A DNA stretch of 64,000 nt from Pempheris klunzingeri (taxonomy: Eukaryota; Chordata; Actinopteri; Acropomatiformes; Pempheridae). The translations under genes and the position numbers were made by a program. Shown piece after piece: positions 114-42,120 of this stretch. Position 1 is the first letter of the stretch. Every line of letters begins with the position of its first letter. The stretch covers positions 1,273,501-1,337,500 of the forward strand of contig NC_092030.1 of assembly GCF_042242105.1 (NCBI RefSeq). The letters are read 5' to 3'. The notes under the pieces are model-generated. The model was given only the letters and a program-made list of their open reading frames with translations. It was not told the DNA's origin and ran no database searches.

Positions 114-6302
<6,189 letters not shown>

Positions 6303-11333: not shown

Positions 11334-16653
<5,320 letters not shown>

Positions 16654-17640
16654 CTCTGGATCCCTGCACGATTATTTGTCTAACGGGAGTTTTTAAGGAG
16701 CACGGGAGCCGTATCCTTCCCATCAAACCCCCCCTCCTCCGGATGACTGGATCGGAGCAGGTTTACTTTCCGTCTTCCCCAATAAGTGCGCAACGCAGCC
16801 AGGAGTGGGCGCGTCTTCTGCAGCCGGCCGGCCTCCGCTCCCACCCAAACCTGACTTTTATTCCTCTCTGCAGACACAGAGGGAGCAGGTGGGGAGGGAG
16901 GGGGGAGCAAGATGAGACCAGCGGCCAGCACAGAGCCATCGGGGAGGTGGGGGGGCTGCAGACGATGCGCTCCCACGACGCACGACGCCTGAAACTCCCC
17001 CCTCTTTGTTTTGGCCTTAATGTAAATGTGTTTATTTTATAACATTGTTATGCAATTGGGCTGACAGGCGGAAAAAAGCTTGTTGGCAAGGTTGCGGTGA
17101 TTAATCCCCTCAGAGCCTCGATCCCCTGAGAAGGACAGACCTGCAGACTGCCAGACAGGCTGAGCTGGACACAACCAGTCTGCTCTCTCATGTCAGCTCC
17201 TAAAATATTACTGACAAACGAATGATGCACTGAGTAACACTTCAACAGTTCTCTGAAAACAATAAGTTACTGGTTAGATGAATTATTGTGCACTAAAAGA
17301 CCTTTCAATCATTGCACGAGTGGTTTTTAACTAAACTGATTCTGCTTTAATGTCACTAAACCTGCAGTCCAGCATCTGTAACAGACAGATCACTTTTAAA
17401 ATATTGGAAATAACCAACTTGTTTACGTTTTAGTCACGTTTAAGACGTAAACACACACCCACGCTGTTTTCATGAAGGAGGATCTGGCGCCATCTTGTGG
17501 CCGAACGCCGCAACGCACCTATTAAGGAAAACGCCGCCTTTTTGACCCTCCTGCTTCGCCGTATCCTCGCCTCCCATCAACGTCTTCCTGGACAAACACA
17601 CGTGGATTTCCACTGACGCCGAGGCAGAAACAACAACAAC
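16654..17640. promoter_or_regulatory. Shared ak3 / rcl1 divergent promoter region
   Basis: The 987 bp between the two start codons must contain the start sites of both genes, and parts are GC-rich. A motif at 17487-17500 reads CCACAAGATGGCGC on the minus strand. That is one mismatch from the CTCF core, and it also contains a YY1-like GCCATCTTG, 140-150 bp before the rcl1 start codon. Transcription start sites cannot be fixed from sequence. Confidence 0.55.
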
Positions 17641-20600
17641 ATGGCAAGTCAGGGACTCGAGTACGACGGCTGCAACTTCTTCAGACAGCGGCTGGTTCTG
17701 TCCACCCTCAGCGGGAAGCGAGTCAAGCTGCGGGGCATCAGGTCGAAGGACGACAGCCCGGGGCTCCGCGGTCAGTTTGAGCCTCGGTCTGCGCGGGGCG
17801 GCGCAGCTAGCTCGGCGGCTAACGGGCTAGCTGCTACGCAGTTGGGAGTGTGTTTTATCTCGGGGCGTAGGAGGTGGGCAGACGGAGGGAGAGCGGTGCA
17901 AACGGGGCTCAAAGTCGATTTTAGATCTCTGCACAAAGTTGTTTCTGTGTTTTGCTCGTGTGGAGGTGCTTTTCCGAGCTTCACATTATCTCACTGACTT
18001 TTTCTGGAAAATGGGAGTGAGTTTCAGCAGAAGTTCCACATGTTCATGTTCTGGTGTTAATTAGGTCACATTCAAACTAAAAACAATAAAAAATAAGGTT
18101 TTGGATAAAGTCTTTGGTTAATTTGGCTTTAATTCCAGTAAAGAAGGTTTTCAGCTTCAGACCAGCTGATGGACAAACTGCACGTTTTGTCTGTTTCTTC
18201 TTCAGATTTTGAGGCCAGCTTCATCAGGCTGCTGGACAAAGTGACCAATGGCTCCAGGATAGAGATTAACCAGACAGGTGAGTGTTGTCATCGCTGTTGT
18301 AATGATTATTACCTCATGGCTCAGGCTGGGTGGTTCATTCAATTACTGTTTATTGGCACAGGGTTCAGGTTCCAGCAGCAACAACAGATGGACGCCACAA
18401 ATGCAAATAACAGGATTTTAGCTGAAGTTAATAACTGTTTTCTTCTGTATTTCTGTTCCCTCACATTTAATTGTACATGTCAGTTCTGCACGTTGTGTTT
18501 TCTGTGACTGTTACACAGAGAGAAATCTCACTTTACTGCATCATCAAGCAGAAAATATGACCATAAATATTTTATTTTCTGATCCACTGACCCTCGTATG
18601 TTTGTCTCCTCCAGGCACTGTGTTGTTCTACCAGCCCGGCCTGCTGTACGGTGGCTCCGTAGACCACGACTGTAACACGCAGCGCTCCATCGGCTACTAC
18701 CTGGAGGCCCTGCTCATGCTCGCCCCCTTCATGAAGAACCCTCTGAAGGCCACGCTGAGGGGGGTCACCAACGACGCCGTGGACCCCACGGTGAGGACAC
18801 GCAGCCGAGCCTCCGATCGCCTCCCTCTGGGTCAGTTTTGGCTCATGACCGCCCAGCAGGGCTGACACGTGTCGGTCGTACTCTCCAACATCAGGCTGCT
18901 AAAGAGAGGGAGGTGGTCTGGGCCGTCGGCAGATGGTCTACCGCCACATAACCGCACTCCACAGATTAATAAAACAAATACAAGGACGTCACAGGGTTTG
19001 AACAGGTGCTGCAGGTCCTTGAAGTTGCTTAAATTTTGATGTGTTGTTGTCTGAGGTCTGAAAAGTGATTGGATTTTGAGTAAACTGCTTGAAACTGGTG
19101 GAAAATCTACATTACAAAATAAGCCATAGAGAGCGTTTTTGATTTGAGTATATATAATTTACCTTAGCTGCAAGGTGCTGGAAAACCTTGAAAATGCTTG
19201 AAAGGTGCTTGAATGACACTTTGGAAAAGGTGTAGTAGCCCTGATGTGAAAGTAAAATGACTTTTGATTAGTCTTGGATTAATAACTCGCAGTAAAATAA
19301 TCAAAAAAATGTACAAAACAAGTCAACAACTAGAATTTACTTCAGAAAAACATCATTAAAGTGTGTGTGTGTGTGTGTGTGTCATTGCCATCAAAAAGAG
19401 GATAAAGGCTGCAGAGTGAAACATGGAAGCACATTTCTTCTTCTTGGAATCTGTTTCATGTTTCATCTGTTTTCTGTCCCTGCTGCTGTGACGGATGAAG
19501 CGCAGACTCTTGTCCTGGTCCACAGGAGGATGTTTGTATTGATTTAAACACTCTGTGCTGCAGGTCGACCTGCTGAAGTCCACGTCCGTCCCTCTGATGA
19601 AGAAGTTTGGCGTTGACGGAGACGGCTTGGATCTGAAGGTGAGGATGCGATGCCAGATATGATGTTTAACGCTCACATGTGCTGCTGCCGCCGTCGTTCT
19701 GCATCCTGGTCCCTCTGTCGCTGCTCCCTCAGGTGGTGAAGAGGGGTATGGCGCCCGGCGGGGGGGGAGAGGTGGTCTTCACGTGTCCGGTCCGCAGAAC
19801 CATGAGGCCGGTGCAGCTGACTGACCCCGGAAAGATCAAGAGGATCAGAGGAGTGGCGTATCCTTTTTCACAGCTCGGCCCTGATGATGATTGTCTATTA
19901 ATTATTCATGTCAGTAAACAGTAGAGCCTCAGATATCTTGTCATTAAGCCGTAAATATTCAGTTTACAGTGTTAATAATCAGAGAAAAGCAGCAAATCCT
20001 CACAGCAGAGGAGCTTCAGGGGTGGGTGCTGGAAATCCTTGAAAACTTGAATATGCTGTTTTCAAAGAAGTCTAATTACATTAATATAATAAATAGCTGT
20101 CTGACAAAATGAGATGGAGAGAGTCTGATGGCTGGAAGGTGCTGGAGAAGCTTGAAAAGTGCTGGAATTTGACTCTAGAAAAGGTGCAGGATCCCTGAAA
20201 TAGGAATAAAAAACAATGAAGTTGCTGAAATACATTTCTGCTGAGTAATCAGTTAATGCCAGAAGCTGAACTCGTCATCAGGAGCCTCACGATGTCGCTG
20301 AGGCGGTTCCCTCCAGTGGAGTCAGCGAAGGTCCTTGACTGTGTAAACCCAGATATTCGGTGCGAGTTTCTCCTCAGATGGCCAACAGGATCGTGGACTC
20401 AGCCAGGAGCGTCCTCAACCAGTTCCTCCCAGACATCTACATCTACACAGACCACATGAAAGGAGTCAGCTCTGGAAAGTGAGTGAGCATCTCAGCTTTA
20501 GTGCAAAGCTTCTGAGCTGTGAACAAGGACGGCTTACACATCATGCTAGAAGATAAACTACATGGATTTTTTGGCTGCAGGTCTCCAGGTTTTGGTCTGA

Positions 20601-23600
20601 CGCTGGTGGCAGAGACGCTGAACGGCTCCTTCCTCAGCGCAGAGATGTCGTCCACGCCTCAGGGGCAGGGAGACCCCGTGCTGCCGGAGGACCTCGGCAG
20701 GAGCTGTGCCAAACTGCTACTGGAGGAGGTGCATCGGGTAAGACTTCAGCTACAGCACACACTCCATCTGAGCACCAAACACACTCCTGTCTGAGCTTCT
20801 CAGGTCCATCTGGTTCACTTTTGTCATTCACTTGGAAATACGTCATAATCCCCCTTTTTAACAATGACTTCACATGTTCAGGCTGCTCTGAAGAGGCTTT
20901 ACAAGATTTATTTTTCATGCTGAACAGACACTCAGGAGTCACACTGTTGTTTGCTTCTGCACAAACAGGCTGTGTGCCAGCAAACATCCAAAAAGAGCAT
21001 TTTTAAACATTGTATTTATGAGTTGTGTCTTTGAATCAACATTCAGCACATACATTGACACCTCCACCCTCACAGTCCAAAAAGACAGGCTGAAATAAAA
21101 AAATCTTAATAAGAGCTATGGTACTACCAGACTCCATTGACAAAAATAGTAATTTTACTTGGCAGTGAACATGGCAGTGGCAGGTCTACTGCTGCCAGTT
21201 TGTTTGTGTCATTGTGTGTTCCACAAATATTTTGTTGGATCCAAACTAACCTGTCAAAACTCCAAAGTCACACAATAACACAAACAAACCAACCAATAGA
21301 GACAGCAGCAGAGCAGCAGCTCCTGTGTTCTGTGAGCTAAAATCAGTGTTTTCGTGAATGTAGTCTGGTGTGTGTGCTGTTTGTGGTTAAACCAAAAGGA
21401 TCTTCCAGGTCTCTCTCTGTAGGGATCCTTTCCATGATGCTGTCACACACTTAGAATAACACTCTGAGCCTGTCAGTGGATCAAACAAGCTCTTTTAATG
21501 GACCTACTGTGATCAGGTGCAGTTGACCTGACTTATTCTGTTGCAGCCCGTTTGGTGGCTGCCAGCCGAGGCGACCTACAGGACCAATTCCAACATGATT
21601 TGTACCTTATAGTAATTTCACTCCCACAGTGTGTAAAAAAACCAAAATTAGGGCCCAGGTTTAAAAACACAGGAATTGTCCTTTAATTGATCACAATAGA
21701 TACCACAAAGAAATACATTCCCTCATTTTTGATCAAACAAGGCTTTGTATTGATTTACAAAATGAAGCGTGTCTGTATGATTATAAGGCCGACTGTGGAG
21801 ATGTACCTCGTGAGGATCGGTGTGTGTCTCAGTAGCTTTAATCCTGCAGCAAACTGCTTCTGCTGTTCAAAACACCAAACCTGTCCTGGTTTATCTGCAT
21901 GATTCAAGCGTAGCATAGTGTCTGATAGCAGTTTACAGAAAACATCCACTGCTAATTTATGACGTGCTGACTGGGTTTCCCACTGTTCTGGTGGTCGGTT
22001 ACTGTGCTGGATGCTCTCCGTTATCTCTGGGAGGTGTTATCAGGTCTGAGACGCCCTGCACACAGCGGAGTCAGCTTTCAGTTCATGCCCGGAGAAATTC
22101 TCGGGGAATACCTGACGCACGGCGGCAGAGCACATGAGAGTCTGAGCGCGCAACAATGACGGCGTTTTGTCCGCATGTTTACCCACATTCCCCGGTAATC
22201 ACCGCAGTCTGGAGTTCAGCTGAGAAACGCTTTTGTTGGCAAAACCTCGGCGCAGGACAGAGCTCACAGGCCATATATCTGTTCAGATCGGGTGTTTTCT
22301 TACTTCCTTTAAGATGGAGGCTTCTGTCCCTTATTTTTTGTTACATTTAAAAGCTGAAAATCAAAAAATTAGACATCAGTTCTAGTATTTCATTACTTGT
22401 AAAGAATAAAGAATCTATGCAGCACCAAAGTGATCAATATTTAATATATAAATGAAGTGCTGTGAATATGAACAGCAAGTCAGGATTCATGATGAAATAA
22501 AAAGTGTCATGTCACCTCAGTAAAAACAAGAAAAGTTAAATTCACATACGATTATTTATTTCATAACGCTGAAATGTTCATTTATCATTCAACACTTTCT
22601 ACGTCCAGCTCACAGGTCGGCCTGTGCTCAGGTCAAAGGTCGGCAAGGTCAGGTTACGTTTTAGGCCGCGGGACGAGAAAAACCCCCACGTGTTTCCACC
22701 TGTGGAGGTGCGACACGCTAACTGGGCCGTTACTAAAAGCCACACAGGCTCGTATGATCTGACACAGTCACGCAGGAAAAAGGGGCGTACAATTGGATGC
22801 AGTGACTGGGCGACTTGAGTGTGGCACCACACGGCTCGGCCTCCCAGCCCTCATCGGAGTCATGTGAGTCCAGTTAGCTGGTCAGGGTACAGCTGATTAA
22901 CTCTGAAACAGGAATATTGTTTGGATGCATCCTCTTCACTCGGAGCAGCAGAGCGAGAAGCTAGCGCGTCTCTTTGGTTCACTCAATATCCTCCAGTTTA
23001 AATGCTTTTTTTTTTCCTCTTGAAGCTGCAGCCGCCGGTAGAACAGGTAGATTCACCTGATCCGAGGGCAAACAGCATTAGAATAACAGCACGGAGGAGA
23101 GAGGAGGACAGCAGAGCAACATGGATCTGAAGAGGGAAGGAAAAGTAGTGGATCCACACTGAAGGCCGTGGGCGCTCCGCATGTGTGCGTCTGTTTGTTC
23201 TGTGGTTAATCAGTACTTGTAGTAAATTAAAGCTGCACGATGGACATTTTGTTTTTGAGCGACGTCAACAGCGGACAGGAGCTGATGGAAGTCCGGCAGC
23301 TTTCAGGGTTTGTTGAGTTTTTCATGTTAAATGATCTTCTTGTTTCAGTTTGAGACCACTGACTCAGCTTTTGTCATGTACAAGTAAAAAAGTAGAGAAC
23401 TGAAGTGGATTTAAAATAACCCAGATATGGATTCAAATTCTAATAACTTTGAATCCACAGTGCTGTTGCTGCTCTCACTGAACTCAGAACATCCGGGTTG
23501 TTTTCTGCTGCAGTGAGGACGGCGTCTAATGAGGTTAAAATCAGGCTTTGCTCACTATTCAGACCCCAAATACAAAACATTTTCTCCTTATTCTTAGTTT

Positions 23601-26178
23601 TCTTTTCACTCACTTCATCTTATATGACAGTTTTACAGGTTTAGGTGAAGGTAGTTATTAAGTTTGACCCCTGAATTGACATTTTATTTTGTTGTCATGA
23701 CTTGTTTGAGTTTGCTCGTGTCTTCGTGAGGATTTGAGGGACTTTTCCGTTGGGCCTCGTGTCTGGCTGGGGGCCTCGTGGGACATCTCAACTGTCTCAA
23801 GTGTTTTGTTTGTTTTGTCTGGAAGGCCTGAAATTAGCTGTCAAAGATGGTGTTAACTCATGTTTCTTGTACTGAAATGAAGCTGCTCGATGTGCTGAAC
23901 AAAAAGTGGAAAAGAGGAAATAGTTGTGCAGTTATTTGAACAGCAGCTCAGAGATAAATAGTCAACTTTCCGCTCTCCGCTTTGTGAATAAAGTCGTAGA
24001 AATGTCGCTGAGGCTGGATAACGAGCCCAGTTTGGTTTTCACTGGAGGCAAATTAAGCTCGATTAGTAAAATGTTGTTGAGTTAATGTTAAAAATGTGAA
24101 AAATCCACCTCAGACATCAGGAAACACACACAGAAAACCTTTGTGCAGTAAAAAGTAATAACTGTGCTTCGTGCGCACCAGGTTTGATAAATGTCGTCCA
24201 CATGTAGAAGGAATGCAGAGTTTGTCCCACCACAGTCAGACAATGTCTCCATAGTTTCAGCTTCGTTGATATAATTATGTAATTGAATCATATTCCTGCT
24301 GACGAGCTGTCACGATGCCACAGTGCTGCATGACTGCGCCACATGCACACATGGTTCAGATGGAAGCGCGGCGCTGCAGACTGCTGCTGTTTCTCAGGTT
24401 CACACACAAACTTCACTACGAACTTAAAGTGACAAATTAACGGACAGTTTTTGAAGGGGATGTGATTTATAGAAGCTTTCGGGTGTGACCCATCTCGCTC
24501 AGCCATGGCCCGAGAGTGGATCCTTTCTCCTCTGTCCTCTGAATGTCTGGTATGTCAGAGAGGAGGAGGAGGAGGGGGGAGCAAGAAACATGTTGAACTT
24601 TTTATTATTCAGTAAAATAGAGTATAAACTACAGACAGTGTGCTCCAAGATGTTCCATTGCCAGAAACATAAATCCAGAAGTTTTACTTGTTGAGCTGAA
24701 TCTGGGGGCGGGACCTTCGCTGACAGATCTACGACACTGCTCTATTGGCTAACACTGACTTTTGTCTTTGCATTTGTACATCTTTAATCAACTCAAAGCT
24801 GTCGTGTCTTCATACCAGAGACCCCAGAGTAAACTTATAGCATAGTCTGAAGAAAGGAATGACTTTTTGTGTTGTGTGAACAAGAGAAACGCCTCAGCTG
24901 TCTCCTGAGTCGCCTGAGTCGGTGTGGATGCTGTTGTTTTTCCTCATCTCGTCCGTAACGTCTGTCTGTTTTTAATGTTGTTGTTGTTGTTGCTCAAACT
25001 CGTCGTCCCTCCTCTCTCCCTGTTTTAGGGCGGCTGCGTGGATTCGTCCAATCAAAGCCTGGCGCTGCTCCTGATGACCCTTGGCCAACAGGACGTGTCG
25101 AAGGTTCAGCTTGGACCCCTCTCCCCGTACACGTAAGCCAGCGTCATTCAATAATAGACACACACACACACACTCACACACACTGTGTGTTCGCCCCTCT
25201 GGACTCCACAAACAGGCCCTCGGCTGATTCATAAGTTATTAAACAGGTGCACTTTGCCACACTGAGGCCTCTCTTTGTTATTCTTTTACTCGTCCAGTCT
25301 TGGCAGGTGACAAAACTCCAAAGTTTTCAAATAAACATTGTTGGTTGGTCGGTCACGGGGGGGTAGATTTAATGTCCCAGTGCACCCAGAGGTTGATTCC
25401 TCTTGCTAGTAGTACACACTGACCCACTGCACTGCTCAGCGAACACGAGGAGAAGAGCCAAGAGAGCTGCTGATTATTCTTTCTTTTTTTAATGCAACAG
25501 ACAGAAAATAAAAAGCCCCAGGTTTGGATGATGTTACGTTGAAGGCATTATCATAGGACTTGGCCAGCTGTGTGTGTGTGACTGTGATGAATTAATAGAT
25601 TTACAGTTTAAGGAACAAGAACAGATGAAATACAATATTTGCTACGTCGACGTCATGGAGGAGCGAACTATGAACTGTCCATTTTCAGTTATCATGGTAC
25701 CGGTGCTGTGTCCCTCTCAAGTACAGTACTATGATAACTGAAGATTGGCAGTGCCATCACAATACACTCCTCCCTTTACTGAGCTGGTGCTGCCGCTCTC
25801 TTCTTCGTGGTTTAGTTTAAAGACTTTCTGCTAAACTTTTTGTTTTATGTAAGTTGGCTTTGACTTTATCATGCATGAGAGAGAAAAGAAGTCCTGAGTA
25901 GACCCAGAAAACTGTTTCCTGTTTTATTTATGTGCAGCTGGAATATAAACAGCGTAAAAATGAAACTGATTCTATCTCCTGTTTCCTCACTAACCTCCTC
26001 CTCCTCCTCTCGCCGTCCGCCCAGGATCGAGTTCCTCAGACACATCAGAGATTTCTTCCAGATCATGTTCAAGATTGAGGTTCAGAAGCCTTCAGAGGAC
26101 GAGAGGAAAGGAGCAGACAAGGTCCTGATGACCTGTGTAGGAGTCGGTTACAGCAACATGAGCAAAACCCTTAAATAA
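17641..26178 (+). CDS. rcl1: RNA terminal phosphate cyclase-like 1, pre-rRNA processing (9 coding exons)
   Basis: Coding exons: 17641-17770, 18206-18277, 18615-18790, 19564-19638, 19733-19857, 20353-20478, 20581-20737, 25029-25132 and 26025-26178 (stop TAA), giving 372 residues (human RCL1 is 373). Recognised by CNFFRQRLVLSTLSGK, LLDKVTNGSRIEINQTG, LYGGSVDHDC, the cyclase-family loop RGMAPGGGGEVVF (about 155-167), DIYIYTDHMKG and the terminus SNMSKTLK. RCL1 is a nucleolar protein of the RNA 3'-phosphate cyclase fold that lost cyclase activity. With BMS1 it acts in early cleavage of the 18S precursor. Intron 5 is U12-type. Intron 7 (4.3 kb) holds a foldback repeat. Intron 8 carries mir-101, as in other vertebrates. 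An AATAAA overlaps the stop codon. The gene is head-to-head with ak3. Confidence 0.96.
18985..19245. repeat. Dispersed 'CTTGAAA' repeat, copy 1
   Basis: In rcl1 intron 3. Words such as GGTGCTGGAAAACCTTGAAA, GCTTGAAAGGTGCTTGAA and TGGAAAAGGTG are shared with 20020-20205 in intron 5. It appears to be a diverged interspersed repeat; the class is unknown. Confidence 0.5.
19361..19382. repeat. (GT)11 microsatellite
   Basis: GT repeat in rcl1 intron 3. Confidence 0.9.
19858..20352 (+). other. U12-type (minor spliceosome) intron 5 of rcl1
   Basis: The donor is GTATCCTTTT, a perfect U12 5' splice site. The branch-site match TCCTTGAC at 20332-20339 lies 12-14 nt before the CAG acceptor, and there is no strong pyrimidine tract. 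Splicing here (phase 2) rebuilds the conserved AYSVRVSPQMANRIVDSAR segment. Other splits lose it. Confidence 0.9.
20020..20205. repeat. Dispersed 'CTTGAAA' repeat, copy 2
   Basis: Inside the U12 intron of rcl1. Shares GGTGCTGGA, CTTGAAAA and TAGAAAAGGTGCAG words with the copy in intron 3. Confidence 0.5.
21100..21682. mobile_element. TTAA foldback repeat, copy B (left end lost)
   Basis: In rcl1 intron 7. Its right half matches the right arm of the complete copy at 42630-43457 almost base for base over about 21380-21530. The right end reads GTTTAAAAACACAGGAATTG then TCCT, followed by TTAA at 21683-21686. Confidence 0.8.
21700..25028. other. Rest of rcl1 intron 7, no gene seen
   Basis: About 3.3 kb with no exon-like frame on either strand. 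A poly-T run lies near 23008-23016 and a short (TTG)n near 24977-24991. Otherwise it is unique-looking intronic DNA. Confidence 0.55.
25674..25752 (+). ncRNA. mir101: miR-101 precursor hairpin in rcl1 intron 8
   Basis: The 3' arm at 25722-25743 is the miR-101 mature sequence, with seed ACAGUAC; the variant with CUAUG in the middle matches the fish miR-101b form as I recall it. The 5' arm (about 25685-25706, CAGTTATCATGGTACCGG) pairs with it across a loop of about 14 nt. Flanks ACTGTCC and GGCAGT extend the stem. MIR101-2 lies in an RCL1 intron in mammals, so position and sequence agree. Same strand as the host, so it is probably processed from the rcl1 transcript. Confidence 0.95.
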
Positions 26179-26179
26179 A
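26174..26179 (+). terminator. rcl1 polyadenylation signal overlapping the stop codon
   Basis: AATAAA is formed by the last Lys codon, the TAA stop and the next base. GT-rich DNA (GTTACGTGTCGTCTGCTGTC) follows at about 26200. If used, the 3' UTR would be only about 20-30 nt. Confidence 0.45.
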
Positions 26180-26266
26180 ATAAGTATTTTTATAAAAACG
26201 TTACGTGTCGTCTGCTGTCTCTTTGCCCCCCCCACATACTAAACACAATATTTTTATGTCCTTTAA

Positions 26267-26558
26267 AAGATCCATCATTCTGCTCATTTTCAAGATCAGC
26301 TGTTTACATCCTGCCGCTTTACTCTGTCCTTCAGTATCTTTACCAGGAGTGAGGAAAAACAATGGCGGACAGCGAGGTGGAGTCAGTCGGCCTGCTGGAG
26401 GAGGTCACATGATCAATAGATCCCCTTATGACATCATAAAAGGAGCCAAATCTAACAGTTTTACACATTTAGTGAACTATGGAGCAGAAGAGAGAGAGAG
26501 AGAGGATGATCTGTAGACACGAGACATTAAAAAGTGCTTTTTATATAATATGGGACCT
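26267..26558. mobile_element. TTAA-flanked MITE, family 2, copy 2
   Basis: Lies between the rcl1 and annexin 3' ends. Left end near AAGATCCATCATTCTGCTC, right end ATAATATGGGACCT, flanked by TTAA at 26263-26266 and 26559-26562. About 292 bp, non-coding, with internal differences from the copy in ak3. Confidence 0.75.
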
Positions 26559-26563
26559 TTAAT
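26558..26563 (-). terminator. Candidate annexin polyadenylation signal (ATTAAA) at the MITE edge
   Basis: ATTAAA on the minus strand, about 262 bp past the annexin stop, made by the MITE end plus its flanking TTAA. I saw no AATAAA nearer. Confidence 0.3.
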
Positions 26564-26824
26564 GTGAAATTTGCATGTAGAAGATAATACTCATTAAGTA
26601 AAAACAGCACATCAAGCAAAAAGACACTCAGCAGCATCTTTTCAGGTCTTTGTGTTAATCATCTGGTCACTAAAAGGTATTTCTAGAAGGTTTGTTGGGG
26701 CTGAATGTTTCTGTGTGATGCTGTTGGAGGTCAGCGCCTGGTCGTCCTCATCATTAGGCACAGCTCTTTCCATCTGCTCTGGGGGGGAACACCACATGTT
26801 TCTCATCACGGGAGCTGGGAGGAG

Positions 26825-29800
26825 TCAGTCGTCTTGTCCACATAGACACTTCAGGGCGTCTCCATAACTGCCTGACACTTCAGACTGCACAAACAGAGAG
26901 AGAAACTGGGGAAAACGTCTCAACTAGACACAAAGACATTAAATTTTACTGAATGTTTAGGAGTAAACCTCTGGGCGTGTGCACTGACCTCTAACTGGGA
27001 GTAGAGGGAACATCCAAACAGCTTTTTGTACTCTGCTCTGATGTCCAGCAAGTCGATCTCTGAGCGACCGACTAGTATCCTGGTCAGAGTGGCCTCGGTG
27101 GTCCCTGCACCCTGGACAGGTACATTTGGGAAAGAAGGAAACAAATAAGGAGGAAGCCGTCTCTTCTTTCTTAGCAGCTGCTCGTATCACTTGATCACAT
27201 CTTTAAGCCTGCAGTAACGGCTCTTTATGTCTCTGCACTGTTGTGGTGCTTTTCAGCTTGTTGCCACATTTGAACCAGTGGTGCACATTTAGTCAAAGCA
27301 GCAGCAGCAATAAAACGGCAGCTTAACATTCCCTTCCACGCCGGTGCGGAACAATGCAGCTGTATGATGAGGCTGAAAAGGCCGAGGGTGCAACCAAACA
27401 ATGTGGGGGTTTTGTTTTGGCAGCCTGTGGTAGACGTGGGCTGGAAAAGGCCCCAGTTTACCTTCATGCTCTTAAAAAGCCTCTCGGCGAGGTACGCAGG
27501 GACGTTCTTCACACACTTAACTAGACAAAAACAACAAGTGAATGAATAAATTAGACTTTTTTGTGATGAGTAGATACAAGTTGAATGTTAATGTTCAGTG
27601 TGTGTGATGTTCATTTCTCACCGACAGCCACCAGGAGCTTCTCCAGGTCTCCAGACATCTCGCTCTCGATGCTCTCCTGCAGAGTCTTCTTGCTAATGTT
27701 CTTGTACTCCACCAGAGCTGCAAAGACAGAGACCTCAGCAGAGCGTTTTTCTCCTCTTGAAGGTGTAACAGACCTCTTTAATGTGTTCGCCATGCTAGCG
27801 GCGAGGTTCTATAGATGTGCATCTCCATCACTGAGGCCGACGTCATCAAGTAGAATTTATAAAAAAATATATCTGCAAATCTAATGACGTCAGCCCTCTG
27901 CTGTCATTTAACAAATACCTGCTTTGCATCAGCGACAGTTGGCACTGAGTGTGTTAACATGCTGCTGTGCCTCAGTAGAGCCTCACAGAGCCGTTAGCGT
28001 GCCTTTATTATATCAGCATCTACAGAAGAGATATGCGGAGGGTACCCACTCTGTCGAAGCTGGGGAACACTCCTGTGGCACAGGATGTCGATAAACTTCT
28101 CCTCATCGGTGCCCCACTTCTTCTCCCCTGCTTCATACAGCGCCTAGAGCGAGCGTGACAGTACAAACAGCTTCAGACTATAAAACAAACAGTGGAGACA
28201 AATTTCACGGCCAAATCCAGCGGCTGCAGGAACAGCTGAGGAAAGGAAAAGCAGCTTCAGACTTGAATCAGAAAGAGATTGGTCTTAGCTATGATGGACA
28301 GAAGTTTGTAAACTCCACACGTACACACAGAGAGCAACACCACCATCATTACTGTTCTTTAGTCTAATTATTTTATCTCACTTTTATTGTTTCTCTATTA
28401 GGCTCTGATTACTGATTCACTGCTTACACACGTTGTATTTATTACCTCCTTCTGTTTGCTCAGCTGATTCTGTCAACGCCCTCAAAAAAAACATTTCTCC
28501 AAACCCATTTTTACCGACCTGCCTTCCCTGAAAAGAGACTGTCCTCACTCTTTTGGATATCCCTGTATATGTATGCTTCTCATTTGTCTGAATTGTATTT
28601 CTGTTGCTGTTTGTAACTGTGTTAAACAAAAAGACATTTTACTTACTTACTCTATTGGTTTTATTCATATGCTGTTGTAATCTTTGAGCAATCTCAATCT
28701 CTGGGTTAATAAAGTTTTACCTGCTCTGGTGAACAGAAACAGTCGTGTGAACTACACGATGAACGACGATGAATACCTTAGCATCTGCTTTAGCTTTGGC
28801 AGAATCCACACTGCTGCTCTCGTCTCTCTTCCCCTGCAAAGATGCACACAGGAAAATATATTTGGCATTTACTCATTTAACTGATGAGCCTCTTTAGCTG
28901 CACATTGCTTGTACTGTGATAAAATCAGCACGTGTTGCGTGTACAGTACCTCAGCCAAGATTAACAGCGCTTTCCCATAATCTCCAGACACCTCGGACTG
29001 CAGATCGTGAATCATCGACCTCCCGGTTTCTTCAGGACGATGCAGACACATTAAATCATTCTAGGTCATCTGAGTTTCTCTCTAACCAGTGACAGTACAG
29101 ATGCTTTGTGTTGCAGACACTCACCTGTGAGGTACATCTCAGACATGGCCTTGATCTGCCTGTTGGACCTCGAGGCAAAGATTTCTGTCAGCATGCTCTC
29201 GGTGGTTCCTGCACCCTGTACGTCCCAGAGAAATGGATCTTTAATTTGACAAGTGACTGGAGTTTTGGGTGAAAATGCAAATAGAGCAAAATGAGTCTAA
29301 CTCTGGTGTTTTTAAACCTCTAAATGACTGGTAGGTACAGAATTGGTCCAGTAGGTCCACTGTGGGTGCTTGTTTTAGTGATCTGCTGGACTAATTTAAA
29401 CAAGTTTTTGTACCTAAAAGTAATTTCAAATCCAAAGTTTGTACAAGACAAAGCCAATAAAAGAGGACCAAGTTGTGTAAAACTTTTCCAGAGAGATCAA
29501 TAGACTGAATATCTGATGTTTCAGTCAATTTAAGCTTCCTTAATACTATAACTTATAAACTGTGTCTGCTGATCAGTCTCACCTTGATGGCTCTGATGAC
29601 TTCATGACAGTCGTAGACAGCGGGAGGCGTTACCAAGGCGACCAACAGGTCCTCAAAGTCCCCGTGAGTGTCGCCCTCCAGGTCGGCCGCCAGCGTCTGA
29701 CGGAGGACACAAGTCTTACTCCCCCATCATGAAACTCACAGCCGGTATCTGACAGAGAGTCCGTGCACTCACCCGTCCTGTGGCCTTCTGGTACGCCTGA

Positions 29801-39600: not shown

Positions 39601-42120
39601 CCTTCAGGACTCACATCCCTGAAGAATCGAGCCAGTGCATCAAACTCATTCCTTTTAAAACGGCAATTTTTACAGTTCAGAGTGATTCTTTATTTAGCAT
39701 CTTGTGTTGCATAATGCACTGCAGGATGTTTCTCCTAAAAGCAATCATGGAGTTACAGATATGTAATAAAAATATGTTAAAGGCGTAATTGTGTAATTGG
39801 CTTGCAGGCAGTTCAGATTCAGTAGTATTATTATGTCCCATGATATGTTCACTGTGTAGCCTGGATCTCCTCTATGCTGAGCAGTAGTGACAGTTGTTCT
39901 TTCCTAAAGTGAAACCGAGCTGGTAAAATAAAAATCACCACGATGCTTTTCAGCAGGTTTTAATAGCAGTTTTTATCTTTACTTCAAATTATGTAAAACA
40001 TGTTTTCAGTTCCAGATTTAAGACTTGAATTTGTCTGTTTGCTCCACTGATGCACTCTAATGACCCACTGAACCTTGAATGTTCATGCTGTAAGCAAACT
40101 GCCAAAACACGTTGGTTATATAACCTGCTGTTGAACCAAATATATCGTTCAAATTGTACAAATAACAGCTTTGAGCAGAGTGGATTTTTGAAAATTATAA
40201 GCTGCTTTAATCAAAAGACACTGATTTGTTTTTAACAGATTTCTTCATCATCTTGTCAGCCATGCTGCTCTCAGTTCTGTGTTTACTTGAGCAGTAAGTG
40301 TGCGCCCTCTGGTATCAACAGTAAGGCGGAAATGTGTCGATCACAGTAAACAGATTAACAATTTAATTTCCCCGGTTTAAAAAGCATTTGATTAATAGCA
40401 ACGTTAATGGAGGGAAAACTGGGTCAAGGCTTTGAATGTAAAAATGTCTTGAATGTAGGTTTTTATCATTTATCTTAATGTCCACAAACTGCCTGATAAA
40501 CTATGATGAAATCTGATCTGGCGATAGCATAACGTTGTCTTTCATTGTGTTTTCAGGAGCACAAAGGAGTGTACAGGGTCAAACTGGTGGCAGAGGTGAG
40601 CCAGGCGGCAGAGGAAGAGGAGGTGGTGCCTCATATTGTTCAGCTCATATCGCCGCCGTTTCTGGGCAGGACGGTCCTGACGGCGGGGCCCGCCAAGTTT
40701 GGAATGGACCTCACCAAGCAGGAGCATGGGGTGAGCTTCCAATGTGCCAGTAATACGCTGTACAGAACCAGCAGCAAAGATCCCAGCTGAAGTTCTCTTT
40801 ATCTCCATCCATTTAAGAAACACGATAATGTGCAATAACAGTCAGACTCCTGTGCTGCAGGTGAAGGGCAGCATAGTGAAAGCCTCCCCCTACACTGCAT
40901 GTGGGCCCATGGATAATGCCGTAGACCTTAAAGGCCATATCGCCGTGGCACTGCGTGGGGACTGCATGTTCGCTGCAAAGGCTCGCCGGCTGCAGGAGGC
41001 AGGAGCTGTGGGAGTCATCTTTATAGGTGAGGAGCTGAAACCTGCTCAGAGCTCGGGCTGGACCGAGGAACAAATCAAACTCCTTTATTCTCCTTCTCAG
41101 ACCACCGCGAGGGAAGCAACAGCGAGGAAACTCCCCTCTTCCAGATGGTCGGAGACGGCGACTCCACTGAAGACATCGCCCTGCCTTTGGTGTTCCTGTT
41201 CAGCCGTGAGGGGGCCGTGCTCACAGCGGCTCTGGAGGAACATCACAACGTGGACGTGCTGCTGCTGCCCAAGGAGAGGCAGCTGGGACACGGTGAGGCC
41301 CAGGAGGAGGAGCAGGGATAAAACCAACGATGTTCTGTTTTTGTTCAAATGTGCTGCGAGAGTGACGTATCTTTGTAGGCAAAGGTTTATGATACTCACT
41401 ATGATATGACTGACTGACTACATCAGGGTCACGTGACGATCCATCCAACCATCTCTGTAGTCTCATTTAGCCACTTGTTAGCAACAACCGCTTTTTTTAG
41501 ACAAATAAAAGCTTTAAAATTCAAGAGAGAGGTATTTACTAATGCATACTTCATAGAACAAACTGTGAAAATCTCTTGCCGCTTGTGGGAACCACAGACC
41601 TGATTTCAGGCAATAAACCTCAAATCCACTGACTTCCTGACTGAGAGGAAGCAGGAAGTGGACTCATTCCTGCAGCCCTCTGTTGTCAACAAACCCCACG
41701 AAAAGGCCAAACCCAACAACACGATGCTCTGCCTTTCAAGTCTTTCCATACTTTTACATAATGACGCTACCACAATTACATGAAATGTCAAATCTAAGTT
41801 ATCAATTCTCTGTTCTTGTTCTATTTTCTCATCATTTATCTTCCCCTCCTCGTCCAGATAAGACAGAAAAACCTGTCAGCATGAACATCAAACTCCGCCT
41901 GGCAGAGGAGGGGGAGCTGGAGGAGGGAGCATCCAAAGGGCCCACCCTGGAGTTTGTCTTGGAGAAAGACGAGGTGCTTCTGAAGGAGGAGGAGGAAGAA
42001 GAGCTCCGAGGACAGAGGCAGTTTCAGCAGGTCTGCACGACGGCAGCAGAGGCCGACAGGACTGAGCCGTGTTCATCTCAGACCTCAAACTCTAACCGTG
42101 GACCAGACCCAAACCCTTGA
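33634..42120 (+). CDS. edem3: EDEM3-like ER alpha-mannosidase with PA domain (20 coding exons)
   Basis: Coding exons: 33634-33728, 33841-33886, 34555-34655, 35416-35455, 35537-35649, 35812-35965, 36117-36251, 36386-36491, 36955-37052, 37206-37331, 37420-37503, 38190-38273, 38666-38790, 38905-39070, 39180-39337, 39412-39529, 40557-40730, 40861-41026, 41101-41292 and 41858-42120 (stop TGA), giving 847 residues (human EDEM3 is 932). Signal peptide about 1-18 ([18 protein letters not shown]). GH47 domain about 33-490, with likely catalytic acids E125 in [12 protein letters not shown]272 in [10 protein letters not shown] and E384 in RPEFAEST, and a calcium Thr in FTTEAH. PA domain about 608-745, which marks EDEM3 within the family. 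EDEM3 trims mannose from misfolded glycoproteins in the ER for degradation. The tail is acidic and has no KDEL. An in-frame upstream ATG at 33577 would add 19 residues; I prefer 33634 because it starts a clean signal peptide. Confidence 0.93.
39530..40556 (+). other. edem3 intron 16, no other gene seen
   Basis: About 1 kb of AT-rich intronic DNA between the GH47 part and the PA-domain exons. I see no conserved frame or clear repeat. Confidence 0.5.

Follow-up and report, generated by a model that had tools for sequence, protein, structure and literature searches.

An intact mir-101b gene very probably lies in intron 8 of rcl1 in the window (the whole stretch of 64,000 nt of Pempheris klunzingeri DNA that was analysed); its hairpin would be cut out of the host pre-mRNA, and the 3p arm would enter Argonaute. 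The family, the mature sequence, and the host intron are all already known, and the locus is an ordinary member of its family; it extends to this fish a host link already described for human, mouse, and chicken. The elements of the locus are:

17641..26178 (+): rcl1 coding region, nine coding exons, 372 amino acids (tblastn, phmmer, and Pfam)
17641-17770, 18206-18277, 18615-18790, 19564-19638, 19733-19857 (+): rcl1 coding exons 1-5
20353-20478, 20581-20737, 25029-25132, 26025-26178 (+): rcl1 coding exons 6-9
25133..26024 (+): rcl1 intron 8, the host of the hairpin, 892 nt
25676..25750 (+): mir-101 precursor hairpin (mir-101b), full-length match to Rfam RF00253, fold z −6.07
25686..25707 (+): predicted 5p (star) arm, paired to the 3p arm in the MFE fold; putative ends, placed by the miR-101-5p register
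25722..25743 (+): miR-101b-3p, predicted mature guide strand, UACAGUACUAUGAUAACUGAAG, equal to miR-101b in the table of PMC4783888 and unique in the window

The host gene was located by tblastn with a human RCL1 query, and the splice sites were then fixed. All eight introns have GT..AG borders, and the open frame is intact once the exons are joined. The 372-residue product is 78% identical to human RCL1, it matches the human RCL1 structure 7mq8_SH of the PDB with an E-value of 2.9e-202 (phmmer), and it contains the Pfam domains RTC and RTC_insert. Intron 8 begins with the donor GTAAGC at 25133 and ends with an acceptor AG just before 26025. The hairpin is situated about 540 nt past the donor and about 270 nt ahead of the acceptor, on the strand of the host.

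Human MIR101-2, mouse mir-101b, and chicken mir-101 have the family, the host gene, and the intron number in common with the window locus. In a table of PMC3675212, human mir-101-2 is placed in RCL1 intron 4, 7 or 8, a numbering that we read as isoform differences, and the mouse and chicken genes are placed in RCL1 intron 8; the human intron 8 placement is also found in PMC4794718 and PMC4231742. For fish, no statement of a host link between mir-101 and rcl1 was found in the open-licence papers searched, and annotation databases or other papers may well have it. The link would be at least as old as the common ancestor of this fish and of human, mouse, and chicken. A first-pass annotation had placed the hairpin in intron 8, on the same strand as rcl1 and at the location of mammalian MIR101-2. 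The intron number is confirmed by the donor and the acceptor between coding exons 8 and 9, the strand by the forward orientation of both the hairpin and the nine-exon gene, and the location by a published table that gives RCL1 intron 8, the same intron as here.

The hairpin itself was evaluated by family matching and by folding. Of 4227 Rfam families scanned against the window, one alone passed its curated threshold, RF00253 (mir-101) at 25676-25750 on the forward strand, with 86.6 bits, which exceeds the gathering score of 60 bits, an E-value of 2.9e-19, and coverage of model positions 1-75 of 75. The 106 nt from 25660 to 25765 have an MFE of −42.4 kcal/mol, whereas shuffles average −23.0 (z −6.07), and none of 200 shuffles was as good; the same was true of the wider piece 25633-25792, which has a fold z of −5.37. 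The MFE structure contains 34 pairs in a stem spanning 25670 to 25757, with both arms paired. The first-pass annotation had proposed a miR-101 identity and intact arms, and had named a stable fold of 25660-25765 as a check; the bit score and the full-length model match bear out the first, the 3p arm at 25722-25743 and its paired 5p partner, together with that match, the second, and the shuffle comparison the third. Ranked by raw MFE among 100-nt segments across the gene, the hairpin is not the lowest; GC-rich segments at exon 1 and a small number elsewhere fall below it. What sets it apart is the comparison with shuffles of the same composition, together with its Rfam family match. miRNA processing motifs comprise a basal UG, an apical UGUG, and a CNNC, the usual place of which is +16 to +18. 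Candidates for the first two are present at 25671-25672 (UG) and 25707-25710 (TGTG), and CNNC occurs at +12, +24, +26, and +27 and not at +16 to +18, which counts against the reading as a working gene. No tandem repeats were found at 20000-27000.

The mature arm proposed at 25722-25743 reads TACAGTACTATGATAACTGAAG and has an A at position 10. Human miR-101-3p has a G at this position, so that human MIR101-2 differs here from the window copy. With up to three mismatches allowed, the pattern TACAGTACTRTGATAACTGAA has one occurrence in the window, compared with 0.01 expected (a match turned up in 1 of 100 shuffles). Positions 2-8 of the 3p arm form the mir-101 family seed, ACAGUAC, and UACAGUAC at 25722-25729 carries it at exactly these positions. 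Deep sequencing in snakehead yielded an identical 22-mer, which is listed as miR-101b, the G10 form being listed as miR-101a (table of PMC4783888). The predicted mature form is the one that is named miR-101b in fish (A10), which refines the plain miR-101 reading. The name miR-101b is also borne by zebrafish dre-miR-101b (PMC7756072) and Asian seabass lcal-miR-101b (PMC3055879). The seabass form is described in the latter paper as fish-only in conservation; the 22-mer of the window is printed as ssc-miR-101b in a porcine cloning study (PMC2644714), which counts against a strict fish label. Because the A10 change is outside the seed, miR-101b and miR-101a are expected to have similar targets. 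Target sites for miR-101 near its own gene were considered and rejected: GTACTGTA occurs three times in the window, compared with 1.5 expected, one of the three is simply the miRNA read on its reverse strand, and 18 of 100 shuffles reach three.

Transcription of mir-101b would most likely occur as part of the rcl1 pre-mRNA, from which Drosha/DGCR8 would cut out the hairpin, followed by Dicer, and the 3p arm would enter Argonaute and repress mRNAs that carry seed-matching sites. Co-transcription with rcl1, processing, loading of the 3p arm, and targets are all proposed by analogy with known miRNA biology, and the position of the hairpin suggests that mir-101b and rcl1 are in the same transcript. 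A study in HeLa cells found that the level of the mir-101-2 precursor went up along with that of RCL1 and that DNA fragments taken from upstream of the RCL1 start codon had promoter activity; its authors conclude that one promoter serves both (PMC4794718). Alternatively, an intact miRNA could be driven by its own promoter within rcl1, e.g. in the 4.3-kb intron 7, and not by way of the rcl1 transcript. Intron 7 (20738-25028) has 4291 nt and is far longer than the other seven introns (94-892 nt), and human pre-miR-101-2 is reported to have a distal AP-1 control region, located 16.4-17.4 kb upstream of it (PMC4231742), so that the host promoter need not be the sole control. The shared intron position across human, mouse, and chicken (PMC3675212) and the co-expression with RCL1 in HeLa cells (PMC4794718) speak against an own promoter, which we regard as unlikely.

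The genome (645.9 Mb, 439 contigs) contains two exact matches to TACAGTACTNTGATAACTGAA, i.e. the window locus and a G10 copy at G000:C6:21829197, and no match to the reversed control pattern; the number of two copies refers to exact matches of the mature pattern alone. The features around the second copy are:

G000:C6:21829151-21829225: second mir-101 hairpin (G10, miR-101a form), matched by Rfam mir-101
C6:21825697 to 21819067 (opposite strand): AK3/4-like gene upstream of the second copy
C6:21861674-21865264 (same strand): JAK-family kinase downstream of the second copy, about 32 kb away

The C6 hairpin has 93.3 bits with Rfam mir-101 and a fold z of −5.19, and none of 200 shuffles was as good. 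The kinase was labelled JAK-family by its match to a JAK2 domain, and we take it to be JAK1. Human MIR101-1 is located near AK4 and JAK1. In PMC4231742, human mir-101-1 is termed intergenic. No rcl1 was found at E 1e-3 in the 80 kb surrounding the C6 copy. Relic rcl1 exons were also rejected, the best tblastn E-value among the 21 pieces listed for the nearest 20 kb being 0.73. In a positive control with the same settings except for the cut-off of 1e-3, the RCL1 query retrieved eight rcl1 pieces from two 10-kb pieces of the window, all with E-values of 4.6e-11 or better. When the DNA of rcl1 introns 7-8 was compared with these 20 kb of C6, the best match was the hairpin (73 letters, 78% identity, E 6e-10), and the other 24 matches were 16-28 letters long.

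Both copies are mir-101 hairpins with an AK-like gene upstream on the opposite strand. The C6 copy differs in having G10, in the lack of any rcl1 match in its surroundings, and in the JAK-family kinase that follows it. The pair would appear to go back to an old duplication, the rcl1 host having been kept by only one of them. We give even chances to a specific history, in which an AK - mir-101 - JAK block with rcl1 as the original host was duplicated in the early vertebrate genome duplication, C6 lost rcl1 and kept the miRNA between AK and JAK, and A10 was fixed in the hosted copy. If this were true, the C6 miRNA would have outlived its host gene. A JAK kinase domain was found neither in the window nor in the 30 kb before or the 40 kb after it (134 kb of contig examined), and the block is therefore incomplete on that side. 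A search of the open-licence literature on mir-101 with JAK1, AK4, JAK2, and RCL1 gave no paper on an AK/JAK block by title. With the two copies, mir-101 with and without a host can be compared within one genome, and neither the host link nor the second copy changes the understanding of miRNAs.

Between the window and the C6 hairpin, identity is 21/22 in the 3p arm, 17/22 in the 5p arm, 8/14 in the loop, and 14/37 in the flanks. High identity in the arms and low identity in the flanks is what a working miRNA would show. In a pair comparison of two sequences only, with the structure predicted from the window copy alone, 21 of the 34 window pairs are unchanged in C6, seven are changed but still pair (three on both sides, four on one side), and six are not standard. 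The position-10 change is two-sided, 25695-25731 being U-A in the window and C-G in C6. The six non-standard pairs, five in the lower stem and one near the loop, count against the reading as an intact gene. A silent relic hairpin that has lost its processing is nevertheless extremely improbable, as the 3p arm has 1/22 differences compared with 23/37 in the flanks, and as the mature sequence is identical to one sequenced in snakehead (table of PMC4783888).

A gene that neighbours rcl1 in the window is:

11337..16641 (−): ak3-like gene, arranged head-to-head with rcl1 (coordinates span the pieces matched by tblastn with human AK3)

The tblastn search gave five pieces of the ak3-like gene with 44-77% identity and a best E-value of 1.5e-25, and 1 kb separates its first matched residue from the start codon of rcl1 (16641-17641). 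The 2-kb bin 16001-18000 has a GC content of 0.507, the second highest of the 32 bins. The head-to-head arrangement at a distance of 1 kb, together with the high GC content, makes it possible that the ak3-like gene and rcl1 share a promoter. Further downstream, an open frame at 40735-41406 (+) with a PA domain (Pfam E 1.6e-12) is part of another gene; a PDB search with this frame gave no significant match. At the other end of the window, positions 4731-5207 (+) weakly resemble the middle domain of CDC37 (E 0.0015, short of the Pfam cut-off) and are possibly an exon of cdc37l1, a gene located near AK3 in mammals.
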